From Meinhardsimonia xiamenensis (GTDB lineage Bacteria > Pseudomonadota > Alphaproteobacteria > Rhodobacterales > Rhodobacteraceae): a stretch of DNA of 64,000 nt. Position numbers and translations under genes: made by a program. Below, piece after piece: positions 5,617 to 63,264 of this stretch (positions within the stretch are counted from its first letter, which is position 1; every line of letters starts with the position of its first letter). The stretch lies in assembly GCF_900102905.1 (NCBI RefSeq), contig NZ_FNFV01000002.1, positions 1-64,000 on the forward strand. The letters are read 5' to 3'. Below the pieces are notes generated by a model, which searched no databases, was not told where the DNA came from, and was given only the letters and a program-made list of their open reading frames with translations.

Positions 5617-5642
5617 ATTTCGCGCTTCCGCGAGAGTTCAAG

Positions 5643-5682
5643 GGCCCCCGCCGGCATCCCCGGCGGGGGCCTTGCATTTTTC
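5643..5682 (+). terminator. Intrinsic terminator after rplP
   Basis: A 12-bp perfect GC stem (5643-5654 with 5660-5671, 5-nt loop) is followed by TTGCATTTTTCG. This is the clearest rho-independent terminator in the window. It closes the S10 operon after L16 and isolates the downstream tct cassette from ribosomal protein transcription. Confidence 0.85.
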
Positions 5683-5849
5683 GTGGACATCCTCTCCTTC
5701 CGGTTCTCCCGGTGCGGCCGCAGTCCCGCCATGACACGTGGAGCTCGGCGCATTCGTGCAAAGTCTTCCCAAAACGGCGGCGAAATGTAATGTGGTCGGA
5801 CCGGACGGAGCCTGGCGTTCCGTCCCGCGCAATCCATGGGAGGGAACAC

Positions 5850-6824
5850 ATCAAGAGAAGAGGATTTTTCGCCAGCCTCGCGGCAGGCGTTCTCATGACT
5901 TTCGGCGCTGCTGCGCCGGCCTCGGCGGCGATGGAGTGCATCGCGCCCGCGAACCCGGGTGGTGGATGGGACTTCACCTGCCGGCAGATCGGCAAGATCA
6001 TGTACGAGCTTGGCCTTGTCGACGAGCCGGTGCAGGTGACCAACATGGCCGGCGGCGGCGGGGGGCTCGCCTTTGCCCATGTCGTCAACGAGCGCAATGA
6101 CGATCCGAACCTGATCGTGGCGGCCAGCCAGGCCACAGCGACGCGGCTGGCGCAGAACGCCTATGGCGGTCTGAAGGCCGATCAGGTGCGTTTCGTGGGG
6201 GCCATCGGCGCTGACCCCGGCGTGATCGTCGTGGCCGCCGACAGCCCCTACAAGTCGCTCAAGGATCTCGTGGAAGCGGTGAAGTCCGACCCGTCATCCG
6301 TCAGCTTTGCCGGCGGCTCGGCCGCGGGTGGCTTCGACCATCTGAAGGTTCTGATGATCCTCAAGAAGGCCGGCTTCGACGACATCCGCAAGGTCAAGTA
6401 CATCGGCGTTGACGGCGGCGCCGACGCGATCACCCAGGTGATCGGCGGTCATGCCACGGCGATGACCGGCGACATGTCCGAAATCGTCGGTTTCCTGAAG
6501 TCGGGCGAGGTGCGCGCGCTTGCGGTCCTGACCGAGGAGCGCGTTCCGGGCTTCGAGGACATCCCGACCGCCAAGGAGCAGGGCTATGACGTGGTGGCGG
6601 TGAACTGGCGCGGCCTCTACGTGCCCAAGGGCATCTCCGACGAGCGCTTCAACGAGATCGCCGAGATGCTGCGCAAGGTCGCCGAAAGCGAGCAGTGGAA
6701 GGAAGCGATGAAAGCCAATGGTCTGGCTCCCTTCACCAAGGTCGGCGGCGACTTCCAGGAGTGGGTGAATCAGGTGATCAAGGACACCGAGGAGCTCAGC
6801 CGCGAAATCGGGGTCATCCAGTGA
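5850..6824 (+). CDS. tctC: Tripartite tricarboxylate transporter, periplasmic substrate-binding protein (TctC/Bug family)
   Basis: TctC-type proteins capture carboxylates in the periplasm and pass them to the TctA/TctB membrane pair. From 5850 the product reads (I/M)KRRGFFASLAAGVLMTFG then APASAA, a textbook signal peptide, followed by a ~300-residue Bug fold (MECIAPANPGGGWDFTCRQI, then AGGGGGLAFAHV). The total of 324 residues fits the family. The codon at 5850 is ATC, not ATG, with GGGAGGG 5 nt upstream; the nearest in-frame ATG (5790) would bury the signal peptide behind 20 residues and lacks a ribosome-binding site, and ATG 5894 would cut the signal peptide. I therefore place the start at ATC, either a rare AUC start or a base error. 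The stop overlaps tctB. The substrate is unknown. Confidence 0.9.
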   Translation: MKRRGFFASLAAGVLMTFGAAAPASAAMECIAPANPGGGWDFTCRQIGKIMYELGLVDEPVQVTNMAGGGGGLAFAHVVNERNDDPNLIVAASQATATRLAQNAYGGLKADQVRFVGAIGADPGVIVVAADSPYKSLKDLVEAVKSDPSSVSFAGGSAAGGFDHLKVLMILKKAGFDDIRKVKYIGVDGGADAITQVIGGHATAMTGDMSEIVGFLKSGEVRALAVLTEERVPGFEDIPTAKEQGYDVVAVNWRGLYVPKGISDERFNEIAEMLRKVAESEQWKEAMKANGLAPFTKVGGDFQEWVNQVIKDTEELSREIGVIQ

Positions 6825-7264
6825 TGATCTCCGACCGGATCTTCGGTCTGGTCGTCACTCTGGTGGCGCTCGCCTACATCGCGAGCGCCACGCAGATCCA
6901 GACGAGCTTTCTGTCCGATCCGGTGGGGTCGAAGACCTTTCCGATCCTGATCGGCGCGGTGGCGGCGCTGTGCGGCGTCATCGTCATGCTCCGCCCCGAC
7001 CCCGACCCGCAATGGCCCGGCCTGCGCCGCCTCGGCGCAATCGCCTTCGCGCTGGTGGTGCTGGTCGCCTACGCCTATGCGCTGAAACCCATGGGCTTTC
7101 TCATTCCCACCGCCATCGCCGCGGGGCTCCTGGCCTACCAGATCTCGCCGCGCCCCGTGCCGGCGGCGCTGACGGGGCTTGGGCTGTCGCTGGGTCTGTT
7201 CGTGATCTTCAAATATGCTCTCGGGCTTGGCCTTGTGGCTTTTCCGAAGGGCTGGCTTGGCTGA
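6824..7264 (+). CDS. tctB: Tripartite tricarboxylate transporter, small membrane subunit TctB
   Basis: TctB is the small four-helix inner-membrane subunit of the Na+- or H+-coupled TTT importer. The 146-residue product has about four hydrophobic helices (around residues 5-20, 34-52, 63-82, 92-135). The ATG overlaps the tctC stop by one base. tctA follows 3 bp later, so the three genes form one unit. The sequence is weakly conserved, as usual for this subunit, and the call leans on position and helix pattern. Confidence 0.9.
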   Translation: MISDRIFGLVVTLVALAYIASATQIQTSFLSDPVGSKTFPILIGAVAALCGVIVMLRPDPDPQWPGLRRLGAIAFALVVLVAYAYALKPMGFLIPTAIAAGLLAYQISPRPVPAALTGLGLSLGLFVIFKYALGLGLVAFPKGWLG

Positions 7265-7267
7265 ACC

Positions 7268-8773
7268 ATGGACATTCTGACCAATCTCGCGCTGGGTTTT
7301 TCGGTGGCGCTCACGCCCTTCACGCTGATGCTGGCGGTCATCGGCTGTTTTCTCGGCACCATCATCGGCGCGCTGCCGGGGCTCGGGCCATCGAACGGTG
7401 TGGCGATCCTCATTCCGATCACCTTCACCATGGGTCTCGATGCCACGTCGGCTCTGGTGCTGATGACGGCGGTCTACTACGGGGCGATGTATGGGGGGCG
7501 GATCTCGTCGATCCTTCTCAACATCCCCGGTGACGAACCGGCGCTGATGACCACGCTTGACGGCTACCCGATGGCCAAGCAGGGCCGGGCGGGGGATGCG
7601 CTGGTGATCTCGGGGGTGGCCTCCTTCGTCGGTGCCTTTCTCGCCACCATCGGGCTGATGCTGCTTGCCCCGCTGCTTGCGGGCATAACCTACCGTTTCG
7701 GCCCGCCCGAGTATTTCGCGCTCTACATGCTGGCCTTCTGCACGCTGGGCGGCATTGCCTCCAACAACCAGGCGAAGGCGGCGATCTCGGCCTGCATCGG
7801 CCTTGGCATCGCCATGATCGGGCTCGACAACACCACCGGCATGCCGCGCTTCACCTTCGGCAACATGCATCTGATGGACGGGGTGGATTTTCTCGTGGCG
7901 ATCGTCGGGCTCTTCGCCATTTCCGAGGTGTTCGTGTTCATCGAGAGCCACGGTCAGAGCACGTCCATCGGCGTGCGGCTCAAGAAGGTCACCGTGCCGG
8001 TGCGCGACATCCTGGCCAGCGGCTGGACGATGCTCCGCGGCTCGCTCGTGGGCTTCATTGCCGGGGTTCTGCCGGGCGCGGGCGCCTCGCTCGGCTCCTT
8101 CCTTGCCTACATGTCGGAGAAGGCGATTGCCGGTGATAAGGCGGGTTTCGGCACCGGCAACCCCAAGGGCGTGGCCGCGCCGGAGGCCGGCAACAACGCT
8201 GCCGCCGGTGGCGCGCTGGTGCCGATGCTGACGCTCGGCGTGCCGGGCTCGGGTACCACCGCGGTACTGCTCGCGCTGCTGATGACGCTCAACATCACGC
8301 CGGGGCCGACGCTCTTTGCCGAGAAGCCCGATGTGGTGTGGGGGCTCATCGCCTCGCTGCTGATCGCCAACTTCGTGCTTCTGGCGATGAACGTGCCCAT
8401 GGTGAAGCTTTTCGTGCGCATCCTGCAGGTGCCGCCCCATGTGCTCCTGCCGGGGGTGACGATGGTCTCCTTCGTCGGCATCTACTCGCTCTCGGGCAGC
8501 TATTTCGACCTTCTGATGATGGTCGGCTTCGGCCTGCTCGGCTGGGCGCTGCGCAAGCTCGACGTGCCGACGGTGCCGATCATCCTCGGCATCCTGCTCG
8601 GCAACAACATGGAGGACTCCTTGCGCCGCGCGATGGTGCTGTCGGACGGGGACTGGACCTATCTGTTCTCCTCGCCCATCTCCATCGGGCTCTGGATCGC
8701 CGCGGTGGTCGGGTTCGTCGCGCCGATCTTCCTGCGTCCGTTCCTGCGCCGGCCGCAGGCGATCACCGACTGA
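7268..8773 (+). CDS. tctA: Tripartite tricarboxylate transporter, large membrane subunit TctA
   Basis: TctA is the large (about 12-helix) permease subunit. The 501-residue product has the family-typical length and conserved glycine-rich stretches: GALPGLGPSNGVAILIPITF near the N-terminus, YGGRISSILLNIPGDEPALM, and GVAAPEAGNNAAAGGALVPM with GVPGSGTTAVLL in the second half. It is co-transcribed with tctC and tctB. The next gene (AtuA family) starts 13 bp downstream, suggesting the imported compound is handled by those enzymes. Confidence 0.96.
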   Translation: MDILTNLALGFSVALTPFTLMLAVIGCFLGTIIGALPGLGPSNGVAILIPITFTMGLDATSALVLMTAVYYGAMYGGRISSILLNIPGDEPALMTTLDGYPMAKQGRAGDALVISGVASFVGAFLATIGLMLLAPLLAGITYRFGPPEYFALYMLAFCTLGGIASNNQAKAAISACIGLGIAMIGLDNTTGMPRFTFGNMHLMDGVDFLVAIVGLFAISEVFVFIESHGQSTSIGVRLKKVTVPVRDILASGWTMLRGSLVGFIAGVLPGAGASLGSFLAYMSEKAIAGDKAGFGTGNPKGVAAPEAGNNAAAGGALVPMLTLGVPGSGTTAVLLALLMTLNITPGPTLFAEKPDVVWGLIASLLIANFVLLAMNVPMVKLFVRILQVPPHVLLPGVTMVSFVGIYSLSGSYFDLLMMVGFGLLGWALRKLDVPTVPIILGILLGNNMEDSLRRAMVLSDGDWTYLFSSPISIGLWIAAVVGFVAPIFLRPFLRRPQAITD

Positions 8774-8786
8774 GGAGGAGCGGCGG

Positions 8787-10142
8787 ATGGGCGTGCGGGT
8801 GCTGGTTCCCTCGGGCGCCCTCGGCCTTGGCTGGGAGGAGGCGGCGCTCGCCGCGGGGCTCGCGGCGGGGCCCGATCTCATCGCCATCGACGGGGGCTCC
8901 ACCGATTCGGGGCCACATTACCTTGGCACCGGCACTTCGAAATACTCCCGCGCCTCGACCAAGGCGGAGTGGGCGGCGCTCATCGACGCCCGCGCGCGGG
9001 CGGGCGTGCCGCTCATCATCGGCACCGCCGGCACCTGCGGGGCGGATGCGGCGGTGGACTGGCTCGTTGACATCACCCGCGAGATCGCCGCCGAGCGCGG
9101 CGAGCGGCTGCGCCTTGCGGTGCTGAAGAGCGGGCAGGCGCCGGCCGAGATCGCCGAGGCGCTCGCCGAGCGCCGGCTCGAGCCGCTGCCCGGCGCGCCG
9201 GAAGTGACGCCCGAGGCGGTGGCCGAGTGCACCAACATCGTTGCGCTTGCCGGCGCCGAGCAGGTGCAGGCGGCACTTGCCACGGGAGCGGACATCGTCA
9301 TTGCCGGGCGCACCACCGACACGGCGATCATCGCCGCCCTGCCGCTTGCGCGCGGCTGTCACGCAGGGGCGGCCTGGCATGGCGCCAAGGTCGGCGAATG
9401 CGGGGCGCTCGCCACCACCCGGCCGAATTCGGGCAGCATCCTTCTCGATTTCGATGAGGAGGGTTTCACCCTCACCGCGCTGGGTCCCGGCGCGGGCGCC
9501 ACGCCGCGCAGCGTCTCGGCGCACATGCTCTATGAAAACGCCGACCCGTTCATCCTGCATGAGCCGGGCGGTCATCTCGATGTGCGGCGCGCGCGGTACG
9601 AGGCGCTCGATGCGGCGCGGGTGCGGGTGACGGGCAGCCGCTGGGTGGCTTCTCCGCGCTACACCGTCAAGCTTGAGGGGGCGCGGCGCGCGGGCTTTCA
9701 GGTGGTCACGCTCGCGCTGGTGCGCGACCCGCGCTACGTCGCCGCGATCCGGGAATGGACGGCGGACATCGCTCGCCGCGTGGTCGAAAAGGCGCGGGCC
9801 AGAACCGGGCGGGCGGATTTCTCGGTGGAACTCAGGCTGATCGGGCTTGACGCCACGCTCGGGGCGCTCGACCGCGCGGCGCGGGCGGGCAGCGAAGTGG
9901 GGGTTCTCGGCATCGTCACCGCGGGCGACGAGACCCTCGCCGGAGAAGTGGCCAAGACACTCAACCCCTACCTCTTGCACCATCCGCTGACGGAGGATGA
10001 GCCCATGCCCACCTTCGCCTTCCCCTTCTCGCCGGCGGAGATCGCGCGCGGAGCGGCCTATGAGTTCTGCCTGCACCATGTCATGGCGCTCGACGATCCG
10101 ATGCAGGCCTTCCGGCTGACGACGCTCGAGGTCGGGCCATGA
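8787..10142 (+). CDS. AtuA/DUF1446 family protein (acyclic terpene utilization AtuA-like)
   Basis: This 451-residue protein matches the AtuA (DUF1446) family: start VLVPSGALGLGWEE, then IDGGSTDSGPHYLGTG, the GTAGTCGADAAVDW segment and VIAGRTTDTAIIAAL. AtuA is named from the Pseudomonas acyclic-terpene cluster, but its reaction is not established, and most family members occur beside transporters of organic acids. GAGGAGGAG precedes the ATG. The gene overlaps the DUF4387 gene by 4 bp, the usual partner. Here it probably acts on the carboxylate brought in by TctCBA; the reaction is unknown and terpene use should not be assumed. Confidence 0.88.
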   Translation: MGVRVLVPSGALGLGWEEAALAAGLAAGPDLIAIDGGSTDSGPHYLGTGTSKYSRASTKAEWAALIDARARAGVPLIIGTAGTCGADAAVDWLVDITREIAAERGERLRLAVLKSGQAPAEIAEALAERRLEPLPGAPEVTPEAVAECTNIVALAGAEQVQAALATGADIVIAGRTTDTAIIAALPLARGCHAGAAWHGAKVGECGALATTRPNSGSILLDFDEEGFTLTALGPGAGATPRSVSAHMLYENADPFILHEPGGHLDVRRARYEALDAARVRVTGSRWVASPRYTVKLEGARRAGFQVVTLALVRDPRYVAAIREWTADIARRVVEKARARTGRADFSVELRLIGLDATLGALDRAARAGSEVGVLGIVTAGDETLAGEVAKTLNPYLLHHPLTEDEPMPTFAFPFSPAEIARGAAYEFCLHHVMALDDPMQAFRLTTLEVGP

Positions 10143-10447
10143 GCACGCTCGGCGAGGTTGCAAGCCATATCCGCTCGAAGAACGCGGGGCCATTCTGGCT
10201 CACGATCGATGTTTTCCTGCCCGACGCCGCGAGCTTCGAGAAGGTGTGCGCGCAGCTTTCCACCGATGAGGTCGCCCGGCGCCTCGGTGCGGCGCCCGCG
10301 AGCGTGCGGCGCTTCGAGATCGCCGATCTCGCCGTCATCAAGTTCAGCCTGCCGCGCCCCGCGGTTCAGGGCAGTGTGGCCGATCGCGACATGCACGGCG
10401 CCTCCTTCGCGCTGCTCATCGGCGACATCGAGCTTGAGGCGGGGTAG
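10139..10447 (+). CDS. DUF4387 family protein
   Basis: This small protein of 102 residues resembles DUF4387: EVASHIRSKNAGPFWLTIDV at the N-terminus, VRRFEIADLAVIKFSLPRP, and a C-terminal DRDMHGASFALLIGDIEL. DUF4387 is typically encoded next to, or fused with, AtuA-type proteins, implying one two-component enzyme. Here the two genes overlap by 4 bp (ATGA). No signal peptide or membrane helix is visible, so it is cytoplasmic. It is the last gene of the tct cassette; a structured repeat follows. Confidence 0.85.
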   Translation: MSTLGEVASHIRSKNAGPFWLTIDVFLPDAASFEKVCAQLSTDEVARRLGAAPASVRRFEIADLAVIKFSLPRPAVQGSVADRDMHGASFALLIGDIELEAG

Positions 10448-10529
10448 AGCGAGCTGCGCTCAATCGAATTCGGCCCGGGCGGGGCGCGCGCGGCCTCAGG
10501 TGACAAGGGCGCAGCCGTCTGCATCCTCC

Positions 10530-10611
10530 GGCCCGGCCGTCAGGCCGGGCAGCGCCCGCCCCGCCCCCTCGGGCAGGCGCTTCGCACCCGCCCCGGGCCG
10601 GGCGCTGCCCT
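10530..10611. repeat. Structured dispersed repeat, copy A (82 bp)
   Basis: This element recurs almost unchanged at 52176-52257 and in diverged form at 42174-42254. Two pairings are possible: a 5' hairpin (10531-10538 with 10543-10550, GTCA loop) and a 12-bp long-range stem (GGGCAGCGCCCG at 10547-10558 with CGGGCGCTGCCC at 10599-10610). The two share GGGC, so they are mutually exclusive. It lies between the convergent DUF4387 and oxygenase genes. The features resemble REP/BIME-type palindromic elements; there is no T-run. Confidence 0.8.
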
Positions 10612-10674
10612 TGACGACATGAGCGCGGCCGTCTCCACCCTCCCGCGCGGCCGGGGGCGGATGCGCCGGCGTTC

Positions 10675-11295
10675 TCATTCCCAGCGATAGTTGAAGCTCA
10701 CCGAGATGCGCTCCTCCTCGGCCATGTTCATCGGCACCTCGTGGCGCAGCCAGCTTTCCCACATGAGCACCTCGCCCACCTGCGGGCGGATGTAGATGAA
10801 GGGGCGCAGCTCCTCGCGCGCGTCGCGGCGGCGGGCGGGCGAGGCCATCATGCGCGCAAGGCGCGGATCCTCGAGCTTCAGCGCCGAGGCGCCCTCGGGC
10901 ATGGCCACGTAGGTGGTTCCGGAGATCACCGAATGGGGGTGGATGTGGCTCGCGTGCATGCCCCCCTCGGGCAGGATGTTGATCCAGATGTCCTCGAGCA
11001 CGAGCGCCCGGTCTTCCAGATCGAACTCGAGATCCTCGGCAAAGGCGGCGACGTGCGCATCGAGCGCCTCAACGAGATCGGCGAAGACCGGAAAGCGCCA
11101 CGGCAGGTCGGTGAGCGAGGCGTAGCTCGTGTAACCCGGATAGCCGTTTTCCGCGCACCAGCGCTGGCCGGCCTCGTCATCCTCGGCGATGGAGAGGCAG
11201 GAGGCTTCAAGCTCGTCGGGGTCGATCTCGGGGCCGTGCTCGGAGAGATGGGCGCGGTAGAGGCGCGTGACGAAGAGCGAAGATATCTGTGCCAT
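10675..11295 (-). CDS. TIGR02466 / 2OG-Fe(II) oxygenase-like protein (PF13759 type)
   Basis: The 206-residue product shows the layout of the 2OG-Fe(II)_5 family: an IWINILPEGGMHASHIHPHS segment with candidate metal His residues, SGTTYVAMPEG, then LMWESWLRHEVPMN with a further His, and RISVSFNYRW at the end with the Arg expected to hold 2-oxoglutarate. Family members are predicted iron/2-oxoglutarate oxygenases of unknown substrate. An ATG at 11304 adds three residues; the start is uncertain. It faces against the ribosomal genes between the tct cassette and rpmC. Proximity to L16, a known oxygenase substrate in E. coli, is suggestive only. Confidence 0.82.
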   Translation of the reverse strand: MAQISSLFVTRLYRAHLSEHGPEIDPDELEASCLSIAEDDEAGQRWCAENGYPGYTSYASLTDLPWRFPVFADLVEALDAHVAAFAEDLEFDLEDRALVLEDIWINILPEGGMHASHIHPHSVISGTTYVAMPEGASALKLEDPRLARMMASPARRRDAREELRPFIYIRPQVGEVLMWESWLRHEVPMNMAEEERISVSFNYRWE

Positions 11296-11371
11296 GGCGC
11301 CCATCTAGACGAGGCGCGCGCGAGAGGCGAGAGGGTTTGCACGCCTGCGCGCGAAATCCGCGAAAAAAGGG

Positions 11372-11400
11372 TTGCCATGCGCGGCGCCTCGGCGTAAACG
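11372..11400 (+). promoter_or_regulatory. Candidate promoter for rpmC and downstream ribosomal genes
   Basis: TTGCCA (11372) is separated by 17 nt from TAAACG (11395). A promoter is required here because the upstream neighbour is on the other strand and the S10 operon terminates after L16. The -10 match is modest (3 of 6), so confidence is moderate. Confidence 0.5.
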
Positions 11401-11419
11401 GCCCGCTCATCCACCGCTC

Positions 11420-11457
11420 CACCGGAATCAGGGTGACCCTTCGGGGGCCATCCGGTG
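11420..11457 (+). promoter_or_regulatory. Structured leader of rpmC with UUCG tetraloop
   Basis: A 7-bp closing stem (CACCGGA 11420-11426 with TCCGGTG 11451-11457) encloses CCC-TTCG-GGG (11437-11446), a hyperstable UUCG-type hairpin. It ends about 8 nt before the rpmC purine box. Such leaders often bind a ribosomal protein; that role is inferred. Confidence 0.45.
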
Positions 11458-11476
11458 ATGTTGAAAGGGAAGAACG

Positions 11477-62800: not shown

Positions 62801-63264
62801 CGCCGCTCCTTTACGAGACCTCTCAGCAGGCGCAGTTTCTCAAGCCCACGGTGATCACGCTGGTCTATGGCCTCGGCTTCGGCATGGTGCTGGTGCTGCT
62901 GCTGGTGCCGGTGCTTCTGGGCATCGGGCAAGACATTGGGCGGCACATCCGCGCCCTGCGCCGGGCGCTCGGCCGGCCACTGCGCGCGCGTGGCATCGGC
63001 CTGGCAGCTGCGGGCGGCCTTGTGGGGGTCGTGGTGCTGTTTGCGCTGACGCTTGGCGCGGTGTTCGTGCGCGGCCGCCTGCCGTCGGGGGTGGAAGCGC
63101 TTCTGGCTGCTCTGCCGGTGCCGATTCGGGTTGCGGCACCGGCGCCGACGGCGCTCGGGGTGTTTCTTGCCGGCGCCGCGCTATGGCTTCTCGCGCTCTA
63201 TGTGGTTGCGGCTTTGGCGATGGCGCTGTCGGGGCGGCAGCGGCGGGCGCGCGGGGCGGGTTGA
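59836..63264 (+). CDS. RND efflux transporter permease (AcrB/MdtB-type)
   Basis: The 1142-residue product has the RND layout: helix 1 (TAANLLLVVLVALGLAAAPR), large periplasmic loops, the proton-relay motif ITLGIVVDDAIVVGEHADF near residue 400 (paired Asp), and the second-half repeat with VGLIGMTGIIINDSIVLVTT. It lacks the usual C-terminal end after helix 12 and instead extends about 90 residues with two or three more hydrophobic segments (GIGLAAAGGLVGVVVLFALT and GVFLAGAALWLLALYVVAAL). The substrate is unknown. It is co-transcribed with the adaptor. Confidence 0.93.
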   Translation: MAERFARLGGLLSYFTRHRTAANLLLVVLVALGLAAAPRMRAQFFPDVVIETVSVSVAWPGAGAEDVDAGIVQLLEPALLAVEGVESSTAVSREGGATIMLDFEPGWDMARAADEVQAAVDAVTTLPEEAEEPQVRRGAWRDRVTDVVITGPVGVEQLGRFADEFVTRLFAEGVTRTTIRGVAAPEIVVEVPSIALIRHDLTMAEIAAAIAEEAAADPAGDVEGANARVRTGSPKRSAAEIAAIALRSNPDGSKLTIGDVGRVIEGGADRDRAYFVGENPAVSIRVDRSDLGDAIGIQRTVEKVAAEMAPALPEGVSIDLIRTRAEYITGRLKILMDNGLLGLGLVLALLFLFLNARTAFWVAAGIPVAMAATIALMYAFGLTINMISLFALIITLGIVVDDAIVVGEHADFRARRLGEGPVEASENAARIMFAPVFSATMTTVIAFFGLVAIGGRFGDLIADIPFTVIVVLLASLVECFLILPNHMAHSLRHSARRHWYDLPSRAVNAAFGWFRETLFRRLMRVVIHARYPVLAGLVALLAWQAAAFIRGDLPWRFFNAPEQGSVTGNFAMAPAARREDTLAQLREMQRAVEAVARRYEAQYGRNPVEYVIAEIGGNAGPGLSGSDTREPHQLGAISIELIDADLRPYSSFAFVADLQEEVRPHPLSETISFRGWRSGPGGDALDVELYGADGETLKAAAEELKRMLATFPEVSGLEDSLAYDKEEFILDLTPQGQALGFTIDALGRVLRNRLNGIEAASFPDGPRSATIRVELPAGELTADFLDRMQIRSPAGEYVSLSDIVSVERRAGFSTVRRENGLRVVSVTGDIAEDDAARAAEIDARLRDELLPQIEERFGISIRLAGIAEEESAFLSDARTGFLLCLLGIYLTLAWIFASWSRPLVVMAVIPFGLIGAFWGHQHWDVPLSMFSVVGLIGMTGIIINDSIVLVTTVDAYARERGLFPAIVDAACDRLRAVLLTTATTVLGLAPLLYETSQQAQFLKPTVITLVYGLGFGMVLVLLLVPVLLGIGQDIGRHIRALRRALGRPLRARGIGLAAAGGLVGVVVLFALTLGAVFVRGRLPSGVEALLAALPVPIRVAAPAPTALGVFLAGAALWLLALYVVAALAMALSGRQRRARGAG

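Follow-up and report, generated by a model that had tools for sequence, protein, structure and literature searches.

Tripartite tricarboxylate transporter genes joined to a putative CmlAB-type lyase in Meinhardsimonia xiamenensis: a candidate unit for uptake and cleavage of a hydroxy acid

Introduction

Which acid is imported and converted by a tripartite tricarboxylate transporter (TctCBA) that is encoded in one row with an AtuA-family protein and a DUF4387 protein? This question is raised by a stretch of 64,000 nucleotides from Meinhardsimonia xiamenensis (assembly GCF_900102905.1, contig NZ_FNFV01000002.1, forward strand, positions 1-64,000), which as a whole is referred to as the window and which carries this five-gene module at positions 5850-10447. 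It is considered likely that the five genes form one uptake-and-cleavage unit, in which AtuA and DUF4387 would be the two subunits of a CmlAB-type lyase acting on the imported hydroxy acid. The initial annotation held that the reaction of AtuA and DUF4387 was not established; this is outdated, as the entries 9erq and 9evf of the Protein Data Bank (PDB) name such a pair as citramalate lyase, with CmlA belonging to the AtuA family and CmlB to DUF4387.

The AtuA that gave the family its name has a role in acyclic terpene utilisation. The window protein has the Pfam family PF07287 in common with the AtuA of terpene utilisation, but no other gene of the terpene pathway was recognised beside the five genes, where no search was aimed at such genes. 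The carrier-protein type of citrate/citramalate lyase (CitDEF type) is a three-subunit complex with an acyl carrier protein, and none of the five module proteins matched its families in Pfam.

Gene content of the module

All five genes lie on the plus strand in the order TctC-TctB-TctA-AtuA-DUF4387, and all five products exceed the curated Pfam cut-offs, in agreement with the gene set first described. TctC (5850..6824, PF03401, 97.4 bits) is the periplasmic substrate-binding protein, TctB (6824..7264, PF07331, 67.1 bits) the small and TctA (7268..8773, PF01970, 501.6 bits) the large membrane subunit. They are followed by the AtuA-family gene for the CmlA-like lyase large subunit (8787..10142, PF07287, 76.7 bits) and by the DUF4387 gene for the CmlB-like small subunit (10139..10447, PF14330, 85.2 bits). 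The spacing was also given correctly before, with 1 bp shared by TctC and TctB, gaps of 3 bp between TctB and TctA and of 13 bp between TctA and AtuA, and an overlap of 4 bp between AtuA and DUF4387. The start of TctC at 5850 needs correction, as the codon at this position is ATC. This ATC is preceded by GGGAGGG and aligns with the ATG of the nearest TctC homologue (locus L008, 81% identity), while an in-frame standard start, ATG 5790, is located upstream. TctC starts either at the rare codon ATC 5850 or further upstream, e.g., at ATG 5790, which would add 20 residues before the signal peptide.

The TctC model was compared with solved structures and matched TctC/Bug-type binding proteins (Z 29.9-36.0 among the top 11 rows). 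The nearest folds bind terephthalate, oxoadipate or malate or have no ligand in the entry title, and none of the matches identified the TctC ligand, including the best sequence match, 25hk_A (E 4.9e-35), which names none. In the source genome, the AtuA search matched one gene (as two pieces) and two TctA genes are present; the second lies on a different contig, close to a gene for a TctD-like regulator.

Relationship of the enzyme pair to citramalate lyase

Searched against the sequences of solved structures, AtuA has a single relative, 9erq_A (citramalate lyase subunit A, cmlA), with 283.7 bits over residues 4-440. DUF4387 matches 9erq_B (subunit B, cmlB) with 38.1 bits over residues 4-90, next to one insignificant match. 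The AtuA model (AlphaFold, mean pLDDT 92.4, 56 sequences in the alignment) matches 9evf_A with Z 48.1 and a root-mean-square deviation (rmsd) of 2.0 over 447 aligned residues at 36% identity, and the next structural match has Z 9.2 over 103 residues. The entry 9evf, released in 2025, is titled "Citramalate lyase - ADP - pyruvate complex". With these matches, in sequence for both subunits and in fold for AtuA, the enzyme pair can no longer be counted as wholly obscure.

For the residue comparison 57 AtuA sequences were aligned, i.e., 31 of the window clade, 10 of the CmlA type and 16 further rows. Thirty positions are identical in at least 97% of the sequences, CmlA types included, and all of them are present in the window AtuA; among them are D35, S38, D40, R175, D178, K201, E204 and C205 as well as H246, Y249, E250, K295, E297 and H431. 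The module hence encodes a full-length CmlA homologue with the conserved core and, in an overlapping gene, the adjoining CmlB homologue. The likeness to CmlA and CmlB, which are known here by entry titles and molecule names, covers the same two families, the fold of the complete large subunit and the shared conserved core, while the window AtuA carries other residues at ten checked sites.

Separate support for a lyase function of the family is offered by E. coli. It was reported in PMC4682846 that a cluster of E. coli O157:H7, encoding glutamate mutase, methylaspartate ammonia-lyase and FumD, is able to make (S)-citramalate, the further fate of which was left unclear there in 2015. In the E. 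coli cluster analysed here the genes are ordered glmS, glmL, methylaspartate mutase subunit E, methylaspartate ammonia-lyase, AtuA, DUF4387, dicarboxylate symporter and class I fumarase. This order places the AtuA/DUF4387 pair where a citramalate-cleaving enzyme is needed. The E. coli AtuA aligns with 9erq_A over all 456 residues (968.6 bits), and a near-identical stretch of its gene is present in 1081 of 5426 E. coli genomes. Differing from the window module, this close CmlA relative sits with glutamate mutase, methylaspartate ammonia-lyase and class I fumarase and has no Tct genes in 16 kb. A comparable order was found at locus L143 of the phylum sample, with MutL, one gene left unnamed by the per-protein scan, methylaspartate ammonia-lyase, AtuA, DUF4387 and a dicarboxylate symporter of the SDF family.

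Transferred to the window, the periplasmic TctC would bind a small hydroxy acid with two or three carboxyl groups, which TctAB would carry inside, as expected from their families. AtuA together with DUF4387 would then cleave the imported acid to yield a 2-oxo acid plus an acid of two carbons, which in the case of citramalate would be pyruvate and acetate, as the names of 9erq and 9evf imply. The ADP-bound structure of the relative suggests that a nucleotide takes part in the lyase reaction.

Alternatively, the pair could use this fold for an isomerase, hydratase or activating reaction, with the product being cleaved elsewhere by coenzyme A (CoA)-dependent enzymes. We regard this as improbable. 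Genes for CoA-transferase and citryl-CoA lyase near some relatives and the varied neighbours of AtuA pairs elsewhere would fit such a role, but the core residues and the fold are kept with an enzyme that was named lyase by its depositors, and among the 80 related loci described below 67 have no CoA-transferase relative of the tested kind and 70 no citryl-CoA lyase relative within 6 kb, with some of these loci on short contigs.

Linkage of the importer and the enzyme pair

The related loci are the best 80 of 188 that were fetched by AtuA similarity; as they were chosen by similarity, counts among them describe related rather than independent cases. DUF4387 adjoins AtuA on the same strand in all 80. 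With linkage defined as TctA at most 6.5 kb from AtuA, 70 of the 80 loci are linked, 59 with TctA upstream on the same strand, 7 with TctA downstream on the same strand and 4 in divergent orientation. TctC alone was scored in two loci, one of which (L064) has TctA just past the 6.5 kb, and no Tct gene was found in three loci whose flanks both exceed 5 kb and in five where one flank or both fall short of 5 kb. As the 13 genomes searched gave 52 TctA matches (two of them fragments), i.e., about four per genome of about 4.2 Mb, a random gene is estimated to lie within 6.5 kb of a TctA gene about 1% of the time. A survey of gene neighbourhoods, which had been proposed for this locus, therefore bears out the co-occurrence within the subfamily of the window.

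Phylogenetic analyses of AtuA (62 rows) and TctA (59 rows) were done with a quick method and both trees have long branches. In the AtuA tree two clades are nested, one made up of the group with downstream TctA (support 99) and the other of the Rhodospirillaceae/Geminicoccus-type group together with the divergent group of SAR116 type (support 95). In the TctA tree, which gives no branching order among the three partner lineages, the partners of the differently arranged groups fall in three separate lineages, each with support 100. Within or beside two of these lineages there are TctA genes that have no AtuA or DUF4387 nearby (L229-L233, with L229 being a short contig), and the link to AtuA requires a minimum of five gains or losses on this tree. 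Judged from both trees, the arrangements are not one inherited block, and the simplest reading is that the enzyme pair was joined repeatedly to different importers; losses and gene exchange could be behind part of the pattern. Such swapping of importers beside one enzyme speaks strongly for a shared acid. The AtuA tree also contains a sequence from an Anaerolineae record (L004) that falls in the alphaproteobacterial clade as sister to L005 with 73% identity to the window protein, representing either a transfer or contamination of a metagenome bin.

That the module merely consists of chance neighbours, with importer and enzyme acting on different acids, is very improbable. It would accommodate the three close relatives that are free of Tct despite flanks longer than 5 kb in both directions, and likewise the Tct-free regions of the DUF4387-centred sample described next, but it is opposed by the linkage in 70 of 80 loci with TctA of three different lineages. 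Coupling of importer and lyase as one functional unit is supported by comparative genomics.

As a general rule for DUF4387 the coupling does not hold. DUF4387 is carried by 25 of 398 sampled genomes of the phylum and by 11 of 61 relatives, with the source genome included in both counts, and the 36 regions centred on DUF4387 cover about 9 kb per side. The candidate rule that AtuA-DUF4387 always travels with Tct was rejected, as 23 of the 36 regions have no Tct gene in the stretch examined, which is shorter in 8 of the 23 owing to a short contig or stretch. The 13 regions with Tct are all from the window's family and have an AtuA of the window's type by score; in one of the loci (L174) the contig ends inside tctA. 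The coupling to the importer is limited to one AtuA/DUF4387 subfamily, and of the link first proposed the functional unit stands for this subfamily only. Neighbour proteins of the Tct-less regions (109, from 19 of the 23) belong most commonly to ABC transporter ATPases (8) and oligo_HPY (6), and families related to carboxylates are CitMHS (4), HpcH/HpaI (4), DctM (2), aconitase (2), CoA-transferase III (2) and citrate synthase (2).

Relatives of the pair are also found on plasmids, with full Tct sets in Shinella and Paracoccus, with TctC-type binding proteins and oxoprolinase genes adjoining the pair in Variovorax and Cupriavidus, and without Tct in the annotated surroundings in Streptomyces, Martelella and Klebsiella. 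A Comamonadaceae plasmid record has AtuA and a TctC-type gene and no annotated DUF4387. Some loci deviate in the gene structure of the pair. AtuA and DUF4387 are encoded in one frame at L158:7374-9566 and L159:7357-9447 (731 and 697 residues), where the two Pfam matches, of which the AtuA one is partial, are separated by at least about 300 residues, and at L173 (about 7526-8700) AtuA is split over two frames by a frameshift or a sequencing error.

Substrate of the enzyme pair

For the substrate, citramalate is tentatively placed first among the candidates, and the sole ground for this preference is the name of the closest enzyme with a solved structure. Citrate itself or an acid resembling it comes second, and something else again is a slightly weaker candidate.

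In the 31 rows of the window clade, three of which (L004, L046 and L079) have no Tct gene in view, K52, Y53, T177, T179, W197, N251, E259, W286 and T409 are constant, and position 393 is N, as in the window protein, with D in one row. The 10 CmlA-type rows have F52, Y177, P179, L197, K251, G259 and R393 and also differ from the window clade at 53, 286 and 409. It is mainly because of these ten sites that the window enzyme is not called a citramalate lyase outright. The CmlA-type residue set is a criterion drawn from the present alignment rather than a published one. The 16 remaining rows keep the window-type states in part, with K52 in 9, W197 in 11, N251 in 10 and E259 in 11. As these states are common outside the clade, it is CmlA that departs from them, and they do not prove a substrate specific to the Tct-linked enzymes.

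One way to account for these residues is that enzymes of the Tct-linked subfamily cleave a tricarboxylate, be it citrate or another, instead of citramalate, whereby K52 would hold the additional carboxylate group and TctCBA would genuinely import tricarboxylates. This is judged to be rather less than probable. It would be in line with K52 and the other residues that are constant in the clade and differ from F52 and its counterparts in the CmlA types, with a citryl-CoA lyase gene beside one relative, and with the prototype TctCBA systems, which import citrate according to PMC5812351. However, the placement of K52 in the pocket is presumed from sequence, K52, W197, N251 and E259 are not special to the Tct clade, and CmlA has extra basic residues of its own in K251 and R393, so that counting charges favours neither substrate.

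The neighbouring genes of the relatives add hints. Forty-six loci share the arrangement of the window and extend more than 8 kb upstream, and a response regulator, sensor kinase and binding protein in divergent orientation are present in 26 of them; the best NCBIfam match of one representative regulator is TctD with 185.9 bits, below the cut-off of 337. The Salmonella and Bordetella citrate transporters with TctD or BctDE (PMC5812351) likewise have three subunits in the order C-B-A, and the Salmonella tctD is oppositely oriented. The window module differs from them by the two enzyme genes after tctA and by having no adjacent two-component system.

CoA-transferase, citryl-CoA lyase and hydroxymethylglutaryl (HMG)-CoA lyase types act on tertiary hydroxy acids or on CoA esters of acids. 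A citryl-CoA lyase relative was found in 10 and a CoA-transferase III relative in 13 of the 80 loci (tblastn, within 6 kb, with some loci on short contigs), and the citryl-CoA lyase model scores 442 on a neighbour gene of L057 at a cut-off of 261. A TctA gene close to the lineage of the window (L232) occurs without AtuA, and genes for a family III CoA-transferase and a protein similar to HMG-CoA lyase lie in its vicinity. Together, the regulator, citryl-CoA lyase and CoA-transferase neighbours hint at citrate-like acids.

Several observations speak against a CmlAB-type lyase acting on the imported acid. The window AtuA shares only 36% of its residues with CmlA and has none of the CmlA-type residues at 52, 177, 179, 197, 251, 259 and 393. 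No methylaspartate-pathway gene is found beside the module, the neighbours being tct, the gene of an oxygenase and ribosomal genes. The window encodes TctC, TctB and TctA together, but the TctDE regulators that are commonly, though not universally, adjacent to such transporters are absent beside the module, and the best TctD-like match in the source genome lies near another TctA gene. In addition, next to a lyase that works on its own, the citryl-CoA lyase and CoA-transferase neighbours of some relatives would be partly superfluous, or else they may indicate citrate.

Genomic position between rplP and rpmC

The module is inserted between rplP and rpmC, a location on which the initial annotation did not comment; these two genes are normally adjacent in the S10/spc region. 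In the window, rplP (ribosomal protein L16; 5203..5616, +; identified as open reading frame and by tblastn synteny with 15 of 20 relatives) is the last gene before the module and rpmC (ribosomal protein L29; 11477..11683, +) the first ribosomal gene past the gap. This gap (window 5617-11476) has 5864 bp, compared with 125 to 3244 bp in the 15 of 20 relatives for which both genes were fetched; of the other five, four had no rplP within about 10 kb upstream and one reached a contig end. rplP is followed by an intrinsic-terminator-like hairpin (5641..5673, +; 14 pairs, 12 of them G-C, and a T run), and visual inspection gave a similar hairpin behind rplP for 10 of the 15 relatives. Given the hairpin and the variable gap, rplP is probably the final gene of the S10 operon in a large part of the family of Meinhardsimonia, and the gap probably tolerates cargo. 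A limited search of the literature gave no evident description of the rplP-rpmC gap as a cargo site.

The gap also holds, on the minus strand, a 2OG-Fe(II) oxygenase-like gene (10675..11304; TIGR02466), which recurs in this place, with a homologue inside the gap in 9 of the 15 relatives and upstream of rpmC, in either orientation, in 11 of the 20; it is probably outside the module. No Tct, AtuA or DUF4387 matches were found in the fetched stretches of the 20 relatives, and the 10 relatives in which both DUF4387 and rpmC were located have them on different contigs or far apart. Queries with seven ribosomal proteins gave no match in the 80 loci and 42 additional AtuA regions, and no sign that the ribosomal position is shared.

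An origin of the module as foreign DNA was considered by composition and gave no sign, with a GC content of 0.675 compared to 0.66 in the flanking ribosomal genes; the third-position GC content (GC3) is 0.87-0.90 in the five genes compared. A promoter scan gave no consensus site, and no Rfam family matched in the window at gathering thresholds. ARAGORN reported an odd tRNA-like gene with a four-base anticodon at 63047-63140 (+), which is unsupported at the Rfam gathering threshold.

Implications for the Tct-linked subfamily

The lyase type of the pair is known from the citramalate lyase entries, while the Tct-linked subfamily may be a new variant, whose exact substrate may or may not be distinct from citramalate. 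At the far end of the range, though rather unlikely, Tct-linked AtuA/DUF4387 could be a new type of lyase that cleaves citrate or another tricarboxylate on its own with use of a nucleotide, needing neither CoA nor acyl carrier protein, and that is carried by Alphaproteobacteria as a transporter-enzyme cassette in which the importer was swapped more than once. Once found, the ligand of either TctC or the enzyme pair should give the other. The module brings together transporters of a family for which few ligands have been described and enzymes of a family with a first solved structure from 2025 (9evf), and two families that were unknowns in the databases would thereby become open to a concrete and inexpensive assay.

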